From positions 1-54,083 of the forward strand of contig NZ_JAILGZ010000150.1 of NCBI RefSeq assembly GCF_024696245.1: a stretch of DNA of 54,083 nt, in the 5' to 3' direction. Each line of letters starts with the position of its first letter. Within the stretch, counting starts at the first letter, position 1. This document shows positions 45,160-53,300 of the stretch, piece after piece. The stretch is from Treponema sp. (GTDB taxonomy: Bacteria; Spirochaetota; Spirochaetia; Treponematales; Treponemataceae). The notes beneath the pieces were generated by a model. It searched no databases and was not told the DNA's origin. It saw nothing but the letters and a program-made list of their open reading frames with translations. The position numbers were made by a program, and so were the translations under genes.

Positions 45160-45842
45160 CAGTTTTCCTTTACAAGTTTTCTGTTTTCAAGAAAGTAAGT
45201 AATGCTGCCTTTTTTAGCAAGCTTCATATCGTGAGTTACCATAAGAAGGCTTTTTTTATAGCGTTTTGTAATATTAAAAAGAAGGTCTCCGATTAAAAGG
45301 GCATTCTCAGGATCAAGGTTTCCTGTTGGCTCATCAGCAAGAACAATCTGAGGATCATTAATTAAAGAACGGGCAACAGCAACCCTCTGCCTTTCTCCAC
45401 CGGACAACTGACCTGGAAGATGAGAAGCCCTGTCAGCAAGTCCCACATCCTCAAGAAGAGCCCTGGCCTTTTCCATAGCACTTTTTTTAGGTACACCTGC
45501 CATATAAGCCGGAAGAAAAACATTTTCCAGTGCAGTAAAATCCTTAAGAAGATGATGAAACTGAAAAACCAGACCAAGAACCTTCTGTCTAAAGACAGTA
45601 AGTTCTTCTTCCTTAAGATTATTAAGGTTTTCCCCCTTCATTATTACACTTCCTGAATCAGGATGATCAAGAGCTGCAATAATATTAAGAAGAGTAGATT
45701 TTCCACTACCGCTTTTTCCGGCTATAACTACACTTTCTCCTTCATGAACCTGAAGATTAAGGTTTTCAAAAAGGAGAATATTTTCTACAGGAGTTACAAA
45801 TGATTTTTTTAAATCCTTTACATCAAGAATAAGATTACTCAT
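45159..45842 (-). CDS. lolD: Lipoprotein-releasing ABC transporter ATPase LolD
   Basis: A 227-residue ABC ATPase. Walker A is GKSGSGKST at 42–50, the Q-loop is in 'VFQFHHLLKDFTALENV', the signature is 'LSGGERQRVAVARSL', Walker B is 'IVLADEPTGNLDPEN' and the H-loop is in 'LMVTHDMKLA'. The 'FQFHHLL' segment is characteristic of LolD-type subunits. The gene lies between the two permeases, overlapping the upstream one by 8 bases and the downstream one by 1, so all three are co-translated. Confidence 0.95.
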   Translation of the reverse strand: MSNLILDVKDLKKSFVTPVENILLFENLNLQVHEGESVVIAGKSGSGKSTLLNIIAALDHPDSGSVIMKGENLNNLKEEELTVFRQKVLGLVFQFHHLLKDFTALENVFLPAYMAGVPKKSAMEKARALLEDVGLADRASHLPGQLSGGERQRVAVARSLINDPQIVLADEPTGNLDPENALLIGDLLFNITKRYKKSLLMVTHDMKLAKKGSITYFLENRKLVKEN

Positions 45843-47112
45843 CTCTGAGAACCTCCGTTACAGAAACTTTTAGAAGCTTTCTACCTGCAAGGAAAGAAGC
45901 TGCTACTGATGAAAAAACACCAAAGATAAAAATTAAAAATATTTCACCAAATTCCATACGTGGTGGAATACGGGCATAAACATTAAACATAGTATTTTCA
46001 GAAAGATACTCAAGGGAGGCTGGAGAAGAAAGCCAGGTAATAAAATATTCAAATAAATACTGAAGTCTGGACATTACCCTGAATACAAATGACATATTGG
46101 ATGTAATCACCAGTCCCAGGGCTAAACCGCTGACAGCTCCCTTAAAACCGGTAATAAATCCCTGAAGAAGAAAAATACTTTTTAACTCCCTCTGGTAAGC
46201 ACCAAAAACTTCAAGAAGGGCACACTCACTTTTTCTCTGATAAATAAGTTTTTTCATACCATTGTGAATGTTAATGGCTACCACTAAAAAAATTAGAAGA
46301 ACCATTAAGAGAAGAATATTTTTTTCCATACGAAGGGCACCAAAGAAACTTCTGTTAAAATCTGTCCATGGCAAAACCTCTGAATCAGGAAAAGCTTTTT
46401 TTATGGAAGGAATAAGGGAATTAACCTGAGAAATATCCTTAAGTTTAAGGCCGTAATTAAGCAGGGCTTTTTTACCAAAATTATTTTTACCTGCTTCAAG
46501 ATTAACAAAGGAATAAGCTGAATTAAGTTCCGGATAGCCGGAATAAAAAACTCCCCTGACAGTAAAAATACGGGACTGAGATAAAAGGCTTACATCACTG
46601 GAACCACTCATGGCTGCAATACAGATTTTGCTTCCTGTATTAACACCAAGAGCACGGGCAATGGAGTTTCCGATTACAATGGAATCAGGTGTATCAAGAT
46701 TAAAACTTCCGGAAATAATATTAAGTTCCTTCATAAAATTTTTATCTTTAAGGGCAGCGTCAATATCAATACTTCTGATCAGGGATGCACACTGCTGACC
46801 TGAATTAACGGCTAAAAGTCCCTGAGCATCATAAAAAGAAGTTACGTTTTTTATTCTATCGTCCTTACTGCACCAGGAAGAAAATTCACTCTCATCTGTA
46901 ATATTCCTTACATTAACATGGTAAGAAGAAACTTCAAGAATGGCATCTATAAAAGTCATCTGAAAGCCATTCATTACACTCATAATTACGACCAGGGCAA
47001 GTACACCAAAACATATACCTAAGGAAGCAAGTCTTGAAGTTCCCCTGGAATCAATTTTAGAAAAACGTCTGGAAATAAAATAAATCCACTTTAACTTTGA
47101 CGATAAATTCAC
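45835..47112 (-). CDS. lolC: Lipoprotein-releasing ABC transporter permease (LolC/LolE family)
   Basis: A 425-residue permease with the same fold as its partner but clearly divergent from it. The N-terminus 'FISRRFSKIDSRGTSRLASLGI' is typical of LolC/LolE, with the first helix at about 25–45. The periplasmic domain spans about 55–255, and three more helices follow (about 265–285, 315–340 and 385–410). The cytoplasmic turn is 'LIYQRKSECALLEVFGAYQRELKSIFLLQG' in short. It belongs to a heteromeric Lol complex with LolD and the second permease. The gene begins 4 bases after the stop of the upstream hypothetical gene. C or E designation is by position only. Confidence 0.88.
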   Translation of the reverse strand: MNLSSKLKWIYFISRRFSKIDSRGTSRLASLGICFGVLALVVIMSVMNGFQMTFIDAILEVSSYHVNVRNITDESEFSSWCSKDDRIKNVTSFYDAQGLLAVNSGQQCASLIRSIDIDAALKDKNFMKELNIISGSFNLDTPDSIVIGNSIARALGVNTGSKICIAAMSGSSDVSLLSQSRIFTVRGVFYSGYPELNSAYSFVNLEAGKNNFGKKALLNYGLKLKDISQVNSLIPSIKKAFPDSEVLPWTDFNRSFFGALRMEKNILLLMVLLIFLVVAINIHNGMKKLIYQRKSECALLEVFGAYQRELKSIFLLQGFITGFKGAVSGLALGLVITSNMSFVFRVMSRLQYLFEYFITWLSSPASLEYLSENTMFNVYARIPPRMEFGEIFLIFIFGVFSSVAASFLAGRKLLKVSVTEVLRDE

Positions 47113-47116
47113 TCTG

Positions 47117-48103
47117 CTACCTCTGAACTTCCTGATTATTATAGAAGACAGTTTCCTTTACCTTAATGCCATGTTCGTAAAGAACCTGCATTTTAAAATC
47201 ATCATCAAAATAATAAGTAATGATTTTTTTCTTATCATCAATATTCTTTTTTGAAACACGGAGAACATTGTTTTCGTAGAAATCTTCATCAGGGCTTTCG
47301 GCAAAATCCTTGTAGTCATAAAGATATCTCTGCTTAAACTTTACTTTTGATTTATTGCCGGATGTTATATATTCATTATATTTTTTTTCTTTAATACGGT
47401 TTTCTTCATCATAAATAAGAAACTGCTCAGACTGAATCAGCCTTCCCTTTTCTTCGTTCATAACCCATTTTTTTATTGAAGTGCACTTACCATTCTGGTT
47501 ATAAATATTTTCTGTATAGGTCTGACTTTCCTTATCACTTTCATAAGTTCTGTAAAGATTTTTTTCTTCACTGTCTGAATATTCAAAAATTATTGTTCTT
47601 ACAGGATCTGCTCCCAGCTGGCTTTTACTCTTCCAGAAAGTTTTTTCCCTTAAAAGATTATCATCTCCGTAAAGCCTTTGAATAATTTCATTACTGTTTA
47701 CGCTTACTAAAGCAGTCCCCTGAGGAAGTTTTAAAACAGAAAGCTTTTCTTCTCCATACTGAAAGTAAGAAAGGGTGTTGTCATTTTTTCTATAGAAAGC
47801 TTCAGGAATATTAACTTCTCCCCCTTCTATAGCCCCTTCGCTTTGAGGACCATAAGCCGGGTTTTCAAGAAGATCTGTCAGTTCCAGACCTGCTTCAGAT
47901 TCAAGAAGACCGGCATCCTCTACACTGTCATCAGAATAAAAAAGATTTTCCTGAGGAAGATATTCACCATAATCATAATAATGACGGAATGTTTTCTGGT
48001 ATTCAGCATAGCCGGAGCGTGAAAAATACCACTCCTGAGCTGCAGGTACCTGAGGATTCAAAAAATTTAAAATTGCACCTAAAGACCAGAAAATTATATC
48101 CAT
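47117..48103 (-). CDS. Hypothetical protein between ftsY and lolC
   Basis: A 328-residue protein without a family I can name. The N-terminus (about 1–22) is hydrophobic and may be an uncleaved anchor or a weak signal peptide. From about residue 120 it is built of short beta-strand pairs ending in Asp/Tyr turns ('FLIYDEENRIKEKKYNEY', 'QRYLYDYKDF', 'YFDDDFKMQVLYEHGIK'), resembling the repetitive hairpins of MORN- or YwqK-like proteins; the repeat is loose. Acidic residues dominate the segment at 55–95. It is 14 bases after ftsY and 4 before lolC, so it is co-transcribed with lipoprotein and targeting genes, which makes an envelope role plausible. Confidence 0.7.
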   Translation of the reverse strand: MDIIFWSLGAILNFLNPQVPAAQEWYFSRSGYAEYQKTFRHYYDYGEYLPQENLFYSDDSVEDAGLLESEAGLELTDLLENPAYGPQSEGAIEGGEVNIPEAFYRKNDNTLSYFQYGEEKLSVLKLPQGTALVSVNSNEIIQRLYGDDNLLREKTFWKSKSQLGADPVRTIIFEYSDSEEKNLYRTYESDKESQTYTENIYNQNGKCTSIKKWVMNEEKGRLIQSEQFLIYDEENRIKEKKYNEYITSGNKSKVKFKQRYLYDYKDFAESPDEDFYENNVLRVSKKNIDDKKKIITYYFDDDFKMQVLYEHGIKVKETVFYNNQEVQR

Positions 48104-48117
48104 AAAAAATCCTGCTT

Positions 48118-48993
48118 TTATTTTGCACTCATAAATTCGTCAATATATTTTTCACAATCCATGGAAGCAATATTTTCGTATTTTTCTCCAGTGCAAACAA
48201 AAAGAACCGGAATACCAAGATCCTTTCCAATGGTAACAATTTCTCCACCTTTAGCAGTAGAGTCATATTTTGTAAGGACAAGGGCATCAAGACCTACAGC
48301 CTCATTAAATACCTCTGCCTGACGGACTGCATTCTGTCCTGTAGTTGCATCAATTACAAGAATCTTTTTATAACAGGCTTCATCTGCTTTTGAAGAAGCA
48401 ATTCTGTCAATTTTCTTAAGTTCGTTTACAAGATTTTCTTTATTATGAAGACGACCTGCTGTATCTGCAATTACAAGTCCCCCTCCGGCAGCACGAACAG
48501 ATTCACAGGCATCAAAAACTACAGCACCAGGATCACTTCCCATCTGATGTTTAACAACCCTTACACCAAGTTTTTCTCCATGCATGGCAATCTGATCTAC
48601 AGCAGCAGCCCTGAAAGTATCAGAAGCTGACAATACTACATTGATTCCCTTCTGGCTGTAAAACTTAGCCATCTTTGCAGCACTTGTAGTTTTTCCAACC
48701 CCGTTTACCCCAAGCAGCATATACACATTTACTTTTGAAGGATCAGGATTAAAGTCAGTTTTTTTAACGTAAGACAAAAGCATTTTTTTAAGCTGGGCAG
48801 CAACCTCTTCTTCTCCGGAAATCTTTTCTTCCCTGCAAACTTTTTCCAGGGCATCTACAATTTCTACAGCAGACTTTGCACCAAGATCACCTTCTATAAG
48901 GGCATCTGTAAGTTCTTCAAAAAAATCATCCCCGGCCCCCTTGTACAAACCAAAAAGAGATTTTAATTTCTGACCAAAAGTAAGTTTTGCCAT
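48118..48993 (-). CDS. ftsY: Signal recognition particle receptor FtsY
   Basis: GTPase that docks the SRP–ribosome complex at the membrane. The 291-residue protein consists almost only of the NG domain: an N-terminal helical bundle to about 85, then GVNGVGKTTSAAK (G1), 'SASDTFRAAAVDQI', 'IADTAGRLHNKENLV' (G3) and 'LTKYDSTAKGGEIVTI' (G4/closing loop). The acidic A domain of E. coli FtsY is absent, as in many small bacterial FtsY proteins. I choose ATG 48993, which has AGGA 9 bases upstream; ATG 49002 would sit one base from it. It is followed at 14 bases by the hypothetical gene before lolC. Confidence 0.95.
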   Translation of the reverse strand: MAKLTFGQKLKSLFGLYKGAGDDFFEELTDALIEGDLGAKSAVEIVDALEKVCREEKISGEEEVAAQLKKMLLSYVKKTDFNPDPSKVNVYMLLGVNGVGKTTSAAKMAKFYSQKGINVVLSASDTFRAAAVDQIAMHGEKLGVRVVKHQMGSDPGAVVFDACESVRAAGGGLVIADTAGRLHNKENLVNELKKIDRIASSKADEACYKKILVIDATTGQNAVRQAEVFNEAVGLDALVLTKYDSTAKGGEIVTIGKDLGIPVLFVCTGEKYENIASMDCEKYIDEFMSAK

Positions 48994-49010
48994 TTTTACC
49001 ATTCCTGTAT

Positions 49011-50738
49011 TTAATTATTTATATCTGTATCTGAAGAAGACTTAACGGAAGTATCTTCTTCAGGATTATTTTTTACGGACAACTTTTCTTCTATCATTGA
49101 ATTCAGACTGGCCTTATACCAGTCCTCTGCTTTAAGAATATCCCTTTCTTTTGCAGGAACTGCATAAACCGGAAGGGCCTTATTTGCAGTCCTTAAATAT
49201 CTTACCAGTTCAAAGGCAAATAAACATGCACAGCCTATTGTAACCCCAGTACTTATAGTCTGATATGTATTCCACTTATTAATCTCATCCACATTGGTAT
49301 AAGTACCAGCATTATAACCGTTAACCATATTCTGATAACGGCCCTGAGAATACAAAGTAAAAGGCAGTGAAAGCACAAGAAGGGAATAGGAACGGTACAT
49401 CCATATTCTTCTTTTTTCTATCTGGGCTGCCACATCTGTAGATTTTCCCTTTACCATTATATCAGACATGGACTCTGAAAGATTTTCCGGAATGTAATAA
49501 AAATAATAGGAAGAATCACTGTCAGAAACAACCTGACCAATAACAGCATTGCCGTTAACCGTAACAGGAACAGAAAGCATGTCATCTGCTATTTTACCGC
49601 TTAACTTTCCATCTGCATAAACAGTAGAAAGAACAGGATACCTGAGATAAAGAAGAACCTGCCCCTTATTTTCTTTTTCCATGGGAACTTCAACAGTAAA
49701 TTTTCTGTCACCTTCAAAATTGTAGGTTATGGATTTTGTCATATAATTTTTTGCAGAAAATTCCAGTGTATGAATTCCTGAATCAAAAATGAGTCTTGAA
49801 TAATTAGAGAATACAACTCCGTCAACAGTAACAACAGGAATAACTTCTTCTTCGGAAGAAATATTTACATTCACTTCTACAGGACGGCTGTTAAGGATTT
49901 TTGGAATCATATAGCGGGCAATGTTTGAAGCAATGGACATACAGTCGTTTAAGCTCCCTACTTCCGTTACAGTTCCTGCATTTTTTGCACCAGGATAAAT
50001 ATAAAGGGAAGCAGTTACAGAGGCGTAGTCACCATAGACTGTAATGCTTCCGCATATAAGGCCGTTAATCTTTTTTGATACAACTTCTTTTTCAAACTTA
50101 CGGCCTGTATAAGCATCCGCTGTAATTTCATCAGAAAAAGAAAGAAGTGAAGTACTGTCATTATTATAAAAAACAAGGGTTTCTGCGGAAGGATAATCAA
50201 CAAGATCTTCTTCTTCCTCTGAGTCAGAAAAAGGATTAAATGGAAAAAAAGAAAATCTTCCCTTAGACTCATCTTCTTCTGTATTTTCAGCACCGGCCTT
50301 TCTTTTTTCTACCTGAGCCTTTGCCTTTTCACAGTTACTGATATTTTCCTGAATCTGCTGCTGAATCTCTTCTATTTTTTCGTTTTCTGCAGCTATAAGC
50401 TTTTTTAATTTACGGGGATTATCTTCCGTTAAAACAAGTGAATCTCTTGTCTGAACTTCCTTGGACAGCTGAAGAAAAAGACTCTGCCTTTCCGTAAGAT
50501 ATTCATTAAGTTTACGGTCCAGCAGTTCTTCATCTGTTGTCATTCTGGCAGGACTGTCTGCTATACGTTCAAGAATAAGGGATGGAAGAATTGTTGCAGC
50601 TGATTCCTGGGCAGAAGAAACAGGAGTCTTTCTTGTAAAAGTAAATTTCGTTGCTGCAAGAGTCCAGTTATCACAAAAAGAAACTCCACCTGAAATGAGG
50701 AGAAAAAGAACTATACAGCAGCGAAAACTTTTCTTCAT
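49011..50738 (-). CDS. Exported hypothetical protein with PEGA-like region
   Basis: A 575-residue protein with a signal peptide (about 1–22, ending GVSFCDNW; a lipoprotein cysteine is not clear). An acidic coiled-coil-like segment spans about 65–150, then a cluster of Asp/Glu around 160–180. From about 285 to 400 two beta segments ('VVTVDGVVFSNYSRLIFDSGIHTLEFSAKNY' in part, and 'LSTVYADGKLSGKI') look like PEGA-type domains, which commonly occur in envelope proteins. Two hydrophobic segments lie near 450–470 and 500–520, so the C-terminus is membrane-associated. It sits 3 bases after prfB and 8 before ftsY. Not a family I can name. Confidence 0.72.
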   Translation of the reverse strand: MKKSFRCCIVLFLLISGGVSFCDNWTLAATKFTFTRKTPVSSAQESAATILPSLILERIADSPARMTTDEELLDRKLNEYLTERQSLFLQLSKEVQTRDSLVLTEDNPRKLKKLIAAENEKIEEIQQQIQENISNCEKAKAQVEKRKAGAENTEEDESKGRFSFFPFNPFSDSEEEEDLVDYPSAETLVFYNNDSTSLLSFSDEITADAYTGRKFEKEVVSKKINGLICGSITVYGDYASVTASLYIYPGAKNAGTVTEVGSLNDCMSIASNIARYMIPKILNSRPVEVNVNISSEEEVIPVVTVDGVVFSNYSRLIFDSGIHTLEFSAKNYMTKSITYNFEGDRKFTVEVPMEKENKGQVLLYLRYPVLSTVYADGKLSGKIADDMLSVPVTVNGNAVIGQVVSDSDSSYYFYYIPENLSESMSDIMVKGKSTDVAAQIEKRRIWMYRSYSLLVLSLPFTLYSQGRYQNMVNGYNAGTYTNVDEINKWNTYQTISTGVTIGCACLFAFELVRYLRTANKALPVYAVPAKERDILKAEDWYKASLNSMIEEKLSVKNNPEEDTSVKSSSDTDINN

Positions 50739-50741
50739 TAA

Positions 50742-51884
50742 TTAATCTTCACCAAGGTCATCATCATCATCAATACCGTCAGAAGCAACTCCCTTCCATT
50801 TGGCACTAAGATATGAATCAAGGAATCCGTCTATATCACCGTCCATAACACCCTGGATGTTACCAACAGAGTATTTTGTACGGTGATCCTTAACCATTGT
50901 ATAAGGCTGGAAAACATAAGAACGAATCTGACTTCCAAAAGAAATATCTTTCTTTTCTCCGGCAAACTTTGAATTCTCCTTTTCCTGCTGATCCTTATAA
51001 TATTCATAAAGTCTTGATCTAAGGATACTCATGGCTGTTGCACGATTCATAAGCTGACTGCGTTCACTGTCACAGGCAACAACTATACCGGTTGGAAGGT
51101 GAGTAAAGCGGACAGCAGATTCAGTTTTATTAACATGCTGACCACCCTTACCACCAGAGCGGTAAGTATCAACACGAAGATCCTTAGGATCAATATTTAC
51201 TTCTATAGAGTCATCAAGTACCGGGAATACATAAACAGAAGAAAAGGAAGTATGACGTCTTGCATTTGCATCAAAAGGAGAAATGCGGACAAGACGGTGA
51301 ACACCTGCCTCACCCTTTGTATAACCAAATACGTAAGGTCCTGAAATCTTCATATTAATTGATTTAAGACCTCCTTCGGCTTCTTCCTGAGAAAGCACTT
51401 CTACCTTATAGCCATGACGTTCAGCCCATCTCTGGTACATACGGGAAAGCATAAAGGTCCAGTCACAGGCCTCTGTTCCACCGGCACCTGCATGAACAGA
51501 AAGGAAGCAGTCATTTTTATCAACTTCATCTGAAAGAAGGTTAAGGATGCTCTGATGGTCATATTCAGCCTTAGCCTTTTCGTACATGGATTTAAGTTCG
51601 TCTTCTACTCCCTGATCCCCTTCTTCCATTCCAAGTTCGTAAAGGGTAAGAAGGTCATCTGCAGTTTTACGAAGTTCTTCCCAGGGTTCAACACGGCCCT
51701 TAAGCATTTTTATATCATTCATTACTTTTGTAGCCTTGTCGTTATCATCCCAGAAACCTTCAGCTGTAGTTAAAGCTTCTTTTTCTGCAATTTTTGCCCG
51801 TATTTCTTCCGGATTAAGACGTGACCATACATCTTCAATATCCTTTTTAAGCTGTTCTACGGGTTCTTTTAAATCTTCAAGCAT
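50742..51884 (-). CDS. prfB: Peptide chain release factor 2, no programmed frameshift
   Basis: Terminates translation at UGA and UAA. The 380-residue protein has the SPF tripeptide anticodon at 202–204, the GGQ motif at 247–249 in 'RSGGKGGQHVNKTESAVR', and 'HAGAGGTEACDW' in domain 2. The reading frame is continuous from ATG 51884 through the region where most bacteria have the in-frame UGA and +1 shift (near codon 25 of E. coli prfB). The autoregulatory frameshift is therefore absent. The C-terminus carries an Asp-rich tail (DDDDLGED). It is the first gene of the long minus-strand run. Confidence 0.96.
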   Translation of the reverse strand: MLEDLKEPVEQLKKDIEDVWSRLNPEEIRAKIAEKEALTTAEGFWDDNDKATKVMNDIKMLKGRVEPWEELRKTADDLLTLYELGMEEGDQGVEDELKSMYEKAKAEYDHQSILNLLSDEVDKNDCFLSVHAGAGGTEACDWTFMLSRMYQRWAERHGYKVEVLSQEEAEGGLKSINMKISGPYVFGYTKGEAGVHRLVRISPFDANARRHTSFSSVYVFPVLDDSIEVNIDPKDLRVDTYRSGGKGGQHVNKTESAVRFTHLPTGIVVACDSERSQLMNRATAMSILRSRLYEYYKDQQEKENSKFAGEKKDISFGSQIRSYVFQPYTMVKDHRTKYSVGNIQGVMDGDIDGFLDSYLSAKWKGVASDGIDDDDDLGED

Positions 51885-51950: not shown

Positions 51951-52265
51951 TCAATATTTTGGGGCGCGGTCTGATGGAGAAGCAGGCCTGTCAGGAGCCT
52001 TAAACTGGGCTTTTTTCCATTTTTTCTGTTTAAGTTCAGTTATTACAAAAAGACCATTTACAGGAAACTGATACATGCGGATTTTATCATAATAATCAGT
52101 TACCCTGTCCACATCTTTTTTAAGGGAAGAAACAGTTTCTTCGTTAATGCTCATACATTCCCAGCAGGAACGCTGAATTTTTTTAAATCCATACATTGTA
52201 AGGATATTAACGAGAGACTTTGCACTGTCCATTCCACCTGGTTCCACTATTACAGAAACAAACAT
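51951..52265 (-). CDS. Cas2-like ferredoxin-fold protein, orphan and lacking the metal aspartate
   Basis: About 104 residues. The layout is Cas2/VapD-like: strand 1 'MFVSVIVEP', a helix ('DSAKSLVNILTMYGF'), strand 2 'KKIQRSCWECMSINE' (the usual 'xxIQxSVFEC' position), a helix ('TVSSLKKDVDRVTDYYD') and strand 3 'KIRMYQFPVNGLFVITEL'. In Cas2 strand 1 ends in an Asp that binds metal; here it is Val/Glu. There is no cas1, other cas gene or CRISPR array in the window. The frame opens at GTG 52319, but a promoter TTGACA-17-TATCCT lies inside that extension and would start transcription at ATG 52265, so I use that start; ATG 52271 is next best. It lies 66 bases upstream of prfB. The fold call is from pattern alone. 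Confidence 0.6.
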   Translation of the reverse strand: MFVSVIVEPGGMDSAKSLVNILTMYGFKKIQRSCWECMSINEETVSSLKKDVDRVTDYYDKIRMYQFPVNGLFVITELKQKKWKKAQFKAPDRPASPSDRAPKY

Positions 52266-52271
52266 AAACAT

Positions 52272-52300
52272 AGGATAATTAAAACTTCCATACTTGTCAA
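52272..52300 (-). promoter_or_regulatory. Predicted promoter of the Cas2-like gene
   Basis: TTGACA (52300–52295, exact -35 consensus), a 17-base spacer and TATCCT (52277–52272) on the minus strand. The ATG at 52265 begins 6 bases after the -10, so the transcript may be leaderless. The -35 overlaps that of the divergent gene. Confidence 0.45.
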
Positions 52301-52322
52301 ACTGCTTAAATTGAGTCACTAT
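52294..52322 (+). promoter_or_regulatory. Predicted promoter of the exported FN3 gene
   Basis: TTGTCA (52294–52299), 17 bases and CACTAT (52317–52322). The ATG at 52329 lies 6 bases after the -10 and has no ribosome-binding site, again consistent with a leaderless message. The -10 is a weak match. Confidence 0.35.
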
Positions 52323-52328
52323 TTAAAC

Positions 52329-53300
52329 ATGAAGAAAATTATACTTGCGTTTACAATACTTTTTGCCCTCAGCAACAGTCTTTTTGCCCAGTCCCAGAGA
52401 CCAATTGTTTCAGGAATCAATACATCTGCCTCATCTAAAAAAATTGTAGTTTCCTGGAAGCTGCCGGAAAAAACAGAAGGGAGCCATATAACTTCCCTTC
52501 TTATATATAGAAGAAACAGACCTTTTAACTCTACAAAAGACCTTGATAATCTAAAGCCTCTTGCAAAACTTTCTTCTCAGGCAGAAACCTTTGCAGATAC
52601 ACCGGAAGATTATTCTGAATATTTTTATGCCGTTATTTCTGTAACAGGTGAAGGAAGCTGGACAGGCAGTGACCTTTACTATGACGAAGAACTGGATGCA
52701 AAACCAGAAGAAAAAGACGGCAAACCCTTCTATATTATTCTTCCGGGAGTAAACACAACTTCTGAAGGAACAAAACTTAAAAGATATTCAAAAAAGGAAG
52801 CTCAGCCTACAGTTCAGGAAAATACACGAAAAAATGAATATAAAGACGGCCAGCTCAGGGAACAGCCCCTGCCTTACATTGATGTCCTTAACAGCCAGAC
52901 CGAAAAGGAAAGTACAATCTCAAAGGATTCAGAAAATGCAGCCCTTTCCCTTTTAGGAAAAAACTCATCTTCTGCAAAAAAGACCCTGGATATGTATATT
53001 TTTGAAGATGACCTTATAAGCCCTTCCGGTGGAGATGATTATCTTCTTTTTGAAGTACTGAGAAAATCTTTCATTAAGGAAGACTTTAAGCTTGCAGAAA
53101 GTGAACTTAAAAAATTCCTTGCCCAGAACCGTTCAGAAAATGCCAGCAACAGGGCAAACTTTTACCTGGGAGAATCATATTACTTTACAGGAAAATACGC
53201 CTCTGCCCTTTCCTGCTTTCTTCTGGTAGAAGACGAATACCCTGTTCTTGCCAACCGCTGGATTGAAAGTACACTGAATCTTTTTGAAAAAGAAAATTAA
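52329..53300 (+). CDS. Exported protein with fibronectin type III-like and TPR-like regions
   Basis: A 323-residue exported protein. The signal peptide spans about 1–20 ('ILFALSNSLFAQSQ'). Residues ~22–115 look like a fibronectin type III domain ('KKIVVSWKLPEKTEGSHITSLLIYRR…' with the Trp in strand B and 'YFYAVISVTGEGSW' in strand F). A polar linker spans about 120–220. The C-terminal ~90 residues ('LAESELKKFLAQNRSENASNRANFYLGESYYFTGKYASALSCF' in short) read as two or three TPR-like helices, as in outer-membrane assembly TPR proteins. A role in the periplasm or envelope is likely; function unknown. ATG 52329 is the first sensible start before the signal peptide. Its stop overlaps the stop of the convergent gene in the palindrome TTAA. 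Confidence 0.75.
   Translation: MKKIILAFTILFALSNSLFAQSQRPIVSGINTSASSKKIVVSWKLPEKTEGSHITSLLIYRRNRPFNSTKDLDNLKPLAKLSSQAETFADTPEDYSEYFYAVISVTGEGSWTGSDLYYDEELDAKPEEKDGKPFYIILPGVNTTSEGTKLKRYSKKEAQPTVQENTRKNEYKDGQLREQPLPYIDVLNSQTEKESTISKDSENAALSLLGKNSSSAKKTLDMYIFEDDLISPSGGDDYLLFEVLRKSFIKEDFKLAESELKKFLAQNRSENASNRANFYLGESYYFTGKYASALSCFLLVEDEYPVLANRWIESTLNLFEKEN

Follow-up and report, generated by a model that had tools for sequence, protein, structure and literature searches.

A Cas2-clade protein family outside CRISPR, encoded ahead of release factor 2 in treponemes and related spirochaetes

Cas2 is usually taken as a sign of CRISPR or of a toxin. What, then, is a Cas2-like gene doing directly ahead of prfB, the gene for peptide chain release factor 2 (RF2), in a 54,083-nucleotide stretch of DNA from a Treponema species (hereafter the window)? 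The original prediction, made from the DNA letters, proposed the similarity to Cas2 and placed the gene between prfB and a divergent gene, and on both points it was right. Cas2-fold proteins outside CRISPR are already known, among them VapD (PMC11980593), BPSL1038 (PMC10491678) and, by fold match, PaaX (8a39). The surprising part is the association with RF2, and no paper combining Cas2, orphan and prfB was found in the literature library that was searched. We use the name Cas2L for the non-CRISPR Cas2-clade family, found in Spirochaetota, to which this protein is assigned below.

Extent, fold and conserved residues of Cas2L

The minus-strand open reading frame at 51951-52319 is a genuine gene. 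It was initially read as protein over its entire span, beginning with the GTG at 52319, and this start must be replaced by the ATG at 52265 when the relatives are aligned. All of them begin at the equivalent of Met-Phe-Val at this ATG, several have in-frame stops within the stretch ahead of it, and the 18 extra codons (54 bases 5' of the ATG) overlap a conserved promoter. For these three reasons, the first 18 codons of the longer frame are not protein. The features of the locus are collected in Table 1.

Table 1. Features of the Cas2L locus, with positions in the window
Feature	Position	Strand	Evidence and remarks
Cas2L, Cas2-clade protein, 104 aa	51951..52265	-	ATG start 52265; PF09827 and TIGR01573 above cut-off
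Codon 8 (Glu), site of the Cas2 metal-site aspartate	52242..52244	-	118 distinct homologues compared
Predicted sigma-70-type promoter of Cas2L	52272..52300	-	-35 TTGACA 52300-52295; 17-base spacer; -10 TATCCT 52277-52272
prfB, peptide chain release factor 2 (RF2)	50742..51884	-	PF03462 and PF00472; directly 3' of Cas2L
Large envelope-like protein	49011..50738	-	No Pfam match; next after prfB in the putative operon, 3-base gap; order conserved in relatives
ftsY-type SRP receptor GTPase	48118..49002	-	PF00448 and PF02881; order conserved
Hypothetical protein	47117..48103	-	No Pfam match; next gene in run; conserved operon member
LolC/E-type FtsX permease	45835..47112	-	PF12704 and PF02687; order conserved
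Divergent gene	52329..53300	+	No Pfam match; also kept in genomes without Cas2L

The proposed similarity to Cas2 is borne out by profile searches. Cas2L matches PF09827 of Pfam (E 1.2e-6; 29.1 bits, cut-off 23.8) and TIGR01573 of NCBIfam (E 2.9e-6; 27.5 bits, cut-off 24.5), the latter model is matched at E <=0.01 by 29 of 29 aligned relatives, and the only PADLOC models matched are those for Cas2. A structure prediction, which had been suggested as a check, points the same way: the AlphaFold2 model of the single chain, built on the 29-row family alignment, has a mean pLDDT of 90.5 and a Cas2-type ferredoxin-like fold. Its best Foldseek match is the Cas2 structure 1zpw (E 9.6e-4), and the top 35 matches are all Cas2, Cas2/3 or VapD. 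VIA-align superimposes the model on E. coli Cas2 with a Z score of 10.7 (1.6 A over 72 residues), and Z is about 10-11 for many Cas2 chains. The repressor PaaX (8a39) is also among the fold matches, with a Z score of 7.5. Profiles and predicted fold alike thus identify the window protein as a member of the Cas2 clade. A descent from VapD had also been entertained, but the sequence libraries return Cas2 only, and H. influenzae VapD (Foldseek ranks 27 and 30; VIA-align Z 8.6) ranks behind many Cas2 chains in the fold comparison.

Within this clade, Cas2L stands apart. When 63 sampled Cas2L sequences were placed in a tree with 22 Cas2 proteins of sibling genomes, a single branch (support 91/87) separated every Cas2L from the rest, and they did not group with the Cas2 of CRISPR loci. 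The separating branch recurs in 90% of bootstrap trees, although the tree is built from few columns and contains long branches. Comparison of the sequences shows Cas2L to be a clade separate from CRISPR Cas2. The two share a sequence profile, the ferredoxin-like fold, an acidic residue closing strand 1 and the region of E36, D60, R63 and Y65. Unlike CRISPR Cas2, Cas2L carries a QxP motif and an invariant Trp near its C-terminus, lacks cas1 or an array beside it, and very probably belongs to the operon for RF2, its mRNA being predicted to be leaderless.

The protein had been described as lacking the metal-binding aspartate of Cas2. This is correct for the window protein and for 17 others, which have Glu at position 8, the end of strand 1; the remaining 100 of 118 distinct homologues have Asp, and nothing else occurs, so that the residue is acidic in every case. 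Asp is also found in the most distant members, apart from one with Glu, and a quick tree requires about five changes between the two residues. As judged from the alignment, the metal-site acid is retained in kind rather than lost, and the change from Asp to Glu is a conservative one. Six residues (F2, E36, K49, D60, R63 and W83) are invariant across the 118 homologues, which have a median pI of 9.3. Among 70 close pairs, the median dN/dS is 0.037 and the highest value 0.11, and comparison of the coding sequences thus shows Cas2L to be under strong purifying selection.

Two characterized proteins offer useful reference points. LinCas2C of Leptospira, from a type I-C locus without an array, is likewise a spirochaete Cas2 that is thought to be active outside CRISPR, and its DNase activity requires Tyr7, Asp8, Arg33 and Phe39 (PMC9510766). 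Unlike Cas2L, it sits in a cas locus and keeps all four residues, and the fold comparison gives an identity of about 16% between the two. Compared by eye, Cas2L keeps these residues in part: Asp8 corresponds to the Glu of the window protein, Tyr7 is replaced by an aliphatic residue or Cys (V/L/C/I), the Arg of RVQ is replaced by Lys, and Phe39 is often replaced by Trp, the changes at Tyr7 and Arg also setting Cas2L apart from CRISPR Cas2. BPSL1038 of Burkholderia pseudomallei represents a Cas2/VapD nuclease sub-family with a D11(X20)SST motif and, like Cas2L, is a conserved chromosomal Cas2-fold protein found in a genome without CRISPR (PMC10491678). The D(X20)SST motif is absent from the window protein, which has E8 and then K-I-Q at that spacing.

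Predicted promoter and operon with prfB

Among 111 distinct class-level loci, 107 have prfB directly downstream of Cas2L on the same strand. In two of the other four, the sequence ends 159 or 272 bases downstream; in a third (L014, the same place as L122) prfB lies about 2.2 kb downstream, and in the fourth (L097) there is no prfB within 1.5 kb. At L122:1099-1401 and downstream, the 2.2 kb between the genes look like an insertion into the operon. A search of the coding strand between Cas2L and prfB revealed nothing resembling an intrinsic terminator, and the genes 3' of prfB in the window follow one another with gaps of 3-14 bases. In loci that carry Cas2L, prfB is preceded by a Shine-Dalgarno sequence in 124 of 125 cases and by a TATNNT -10 element near its own start in none. 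Cas2L and prfB thus very probably form one operon in the window's class, with Cas2L as its first gene.

The -10 element of the predicted promoter ends 6 bases ahead of the ATG. The full pattern (TTGACA, 17 bases, TATCCT) has this single match in the window, where 0.02 are expected, and 8 matches in the 2.66 Mb genome versus 2 for a reversed control pattern. A local scan ranks the site first of five promoter-like sites, with 10 of 12 bases. A -35/-10 pair that departs from consensus at no more than three bases, and whose end lies 4-9 bases ahead of the ATG, is present in 103 of 118 homologues as opposed to about 5% of shuffled upstream sequences. The -35 is exactly TTGACA in 93 of these 118 and the spacer is 17 bases in 104, and the T, A and final T of the -10 are invariant in the 104 promoters that were aligned. 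Because a transcript start 6-7 bases past the -10 coincides with the ATG, the Cas2L mRNA is predicted to begin at its own ATG or at most two bases from it, and hence to be leaderless. Among other spirochaetes, Leptospira interrogans commonly has mRNAs of this type (PMC5243855). No Rfam elements were found near the locus.

The prfB gene of the window has a peculiarity of its own. A programmed +1 frameshift in RF2 (TGGGGGCGTCTTTGAC) is near universal in related prfB genes, and it has been lost at the 5' end of the window's prfB (51770-51884), where WSRLNPEE, with CTT AAT, is read in a continuous frame without CTTTGA. Several further lineages, some carrying Cas2L and some not, have lost the frameshift too. 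A 2025 survey of prfB frameshifts, in which the words 'operon' and 'Treponema' do not appear, gives 42% for Spirochaetota (PMC12421855). RF3 (TIGR00503) is present in just 5 of 59 genomes, all of them outside the genus, a distribution that carries no information on co-occurrence with Cas2L.

Distribution, CRISPR context and natural losses

Cas2L is present in 30 of 59 relatives, in 58 of the 129 genomes surveyed in the window's genus and in 49 of 296 sampled Spirochaetota, with scores that are clearly set off (79.8 bits for the weakest accepted phylum member). Among cultured species, its carriers include T. ruminis, T. socranskii, T. parvum, T. lecithinolyticum and T. zioleckii. In a scan of 84,980 species, all 80 listed loci are spirochaete or treponeme records, and 111 further loci, unlisted, were confirmed. 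Searches of plasmids, phages and viral contigs gave no match, and on this basis a mobile origin is rejected. Together with the fixed locus, this agrees with the earlier view that the gene is chromosomal and not mobile, and vertical inheritance on the chromosome is supported by the sequence comparisons.

A survey of the locus in treponemes with and without CRISPR, also suggested at the outset, confirmed the linkage to prfB described above and found the presence of Cas2L to be independent of cas1. Specifically, Cas1 was found in 13 of the 30 genomes that carry Cas2L, compared with 11 of the 29 that lack it. With Cas1 similarly frequent in both groups, Cas2L does not follow CRISPR. Cas1 or a CRISPR array would be the expected neighbor of an adaptation Cas2, but in 107 of 111 class-level loci Cas2L is beside prfB. 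As had been predicted, there is no cas gene or repeat array nearby: a crude exact-repeat scan of the window revealed no CRISPR-like array, and the genome to which the window belongs, whose assembly is 99% complete, yielded neither Cas1 nor a second Cas2. It is likely, and we hold with high confidence, that Cas2L is a Cas2-clade family that is inherited vertically, stands outside CRISPR and, in the window's class, shares one operon with prfB.

Genomes that lack Cas2L are instructive. At 19 of 30 such loci, the same type of promoter is located 6-7 bases before the ATG of prfB, mostly without a Shine-Dalgarno sequence; 16 of the genomes form one clade, and the 19 loci are not 19 events. Four others (L202, L213, L214 and L215) retain a consensus promoter upstream of prfB, with a leader and a Shine-Dalgarno sequence. 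The simplest reading of these arrangements is that promoter, Cas2L and prfB form one unit, and that loss of Cas2L would put prfB directly under the promoter. As a separate observation, many treponemes without Cas2L (L192-L217) are predicted to make a leaderless mRNA from prfB, even though RF2 is a translation factor.

Mapped on a prfB tree, the presence and absence of Cas2L require about seven changes, of which at least five are forced by well-supported branches. Repeated loss (some five to seven times) indicates that the gene is dispensable. The core cellular role that had been considered for it is thus plausible as to a cellular role, but 'core' is too strong. The divergent gene is retained after Cas2L has gone and so is not a Cas2L-specific partner. 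Among phylum-distant members (L182-L188), Cas2L lies away from prfB with varying neighbors and mostly with a Shine-Dalgarno sequence. This placement implies that the link to RF2 is younger than the family, and that the biochemical function of Cas2L is likely older than that link.

Possible functions of Cas2L

The best explanation that we can offer joins a vertical, non-CRISPR Cas2L and a prfB operon predicted to be leaderless to a housekeeping role involving nucleic acid, and as a whole it has about an even chance of being right. One mRNA would yield both Cas2L and RF2. The protein would act as a Cas2-type homodimer, which would bind, and probably also cleave, RNA or DNA via its paired acidic residues. 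Cas2L would then be produced alongside RF2 and serve the cell as a housekeeping factor connected with translation or with the turnover of RNA. The step that involves a nuclease or RNA is a guess, and one somewhat more apt to be wrong than right. A bolder proposal seems unlikely to us, namely that a Cas2-fold protein has been drafted into spirochaete translation, where it would share a leaderless mRNA with RF2, act on ribosome-associated RNA or on the RF2 message, and adjust termination.

The main rival casts Cas2L as a regulator of its own operon, one without catalytic activity: as a dimer with the Cas2 fold, it would tune RF2 by binding either the promoter or the mRNA of prfB. The PaaX repressor has a Cas2-like middle domain, and its place among the fold matches, the first position of Cas2L in the operon, the basic character of the protein and the partial retention of Cas2 active-site residues all favor such a role. 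So does a promoter whose conservation extends past its hexamers to a T-rich stretch within the 17-base spacer (52278-52294 in the window) that recurs across genus and family. However, three genomes without the gene (L202, L213 and L214) have this spacer motif too, and most order-level members with the gene do not, which leaves the spacer unsupported as an operator for Cas2L. Moreover, no obvious palindrome was seen in the promoter, and Cas2L lacks a helix-turn-helix or other DNA-binding domain. We regard regulation by Cas2L as a minority possibility.

It is improbable that Cas2L is an orphan toxin like VapD, an mRNA interferase without its antitoxin. Cas2L resembles H. influenzae VapD and HP0315 of H. 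pylori in having a Cas2-like fold, in its independence from CRISPR and in its capacity to stand alone, and stand-alone vapD genes have been described (PMC11980593). Nevertheless, there is no antitoxin-like neighbor, the divergent gene outlasts Cas2L, and a vertically inherited gene fixed in a chromosomal operon, without a match in mobile elements, does not resemble VapD. Pfam, NCBIfam and PADLOC, which may or may not include a VapD-specific model, return Cas2 families only.

The matches to TIGR01573 and to the Cas2 models of PADLOC could also be expected if Cas2L served CRISPR adaptation in trans, away from an array. This is very hard to reconcile with the 17 of 30 Cas2L-bearing genomes, that of the window among them, that have no Cas1, and with the separate Cas2 encoded beside Cas1 in several genomes. 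Finally, the idea that Cas2L replaces the programmed frameshift in the control of RF2, which arose from a first small sample (about 30 genomes without Cas2L) wherein only genomes with Cas2L showed the loss, is rejected as scarcely credible, because the 129 genomes of the genus reveal no association (frameshift lost in 10 of 58 with Cas2L versus 8 of 71 without) and most genomes with Cas2L keep the frameshift.

For those who survey CRISPR systems in treponemes, there is a practical consequence: the NCBI model labels Cas2L as 'CRISPR-associated endonuclease Cas2' above its cut-off, and such surveys can therefore count a false cas2. More broadly, Cas2L is a fixed and selected chromosomal gene that precedes RF2 across a spirochaete order, with or without CRISPR, and it provides a clean system for studying the roles that Cas2 proteins have played, or are able to play, beyond adaptive immunity.
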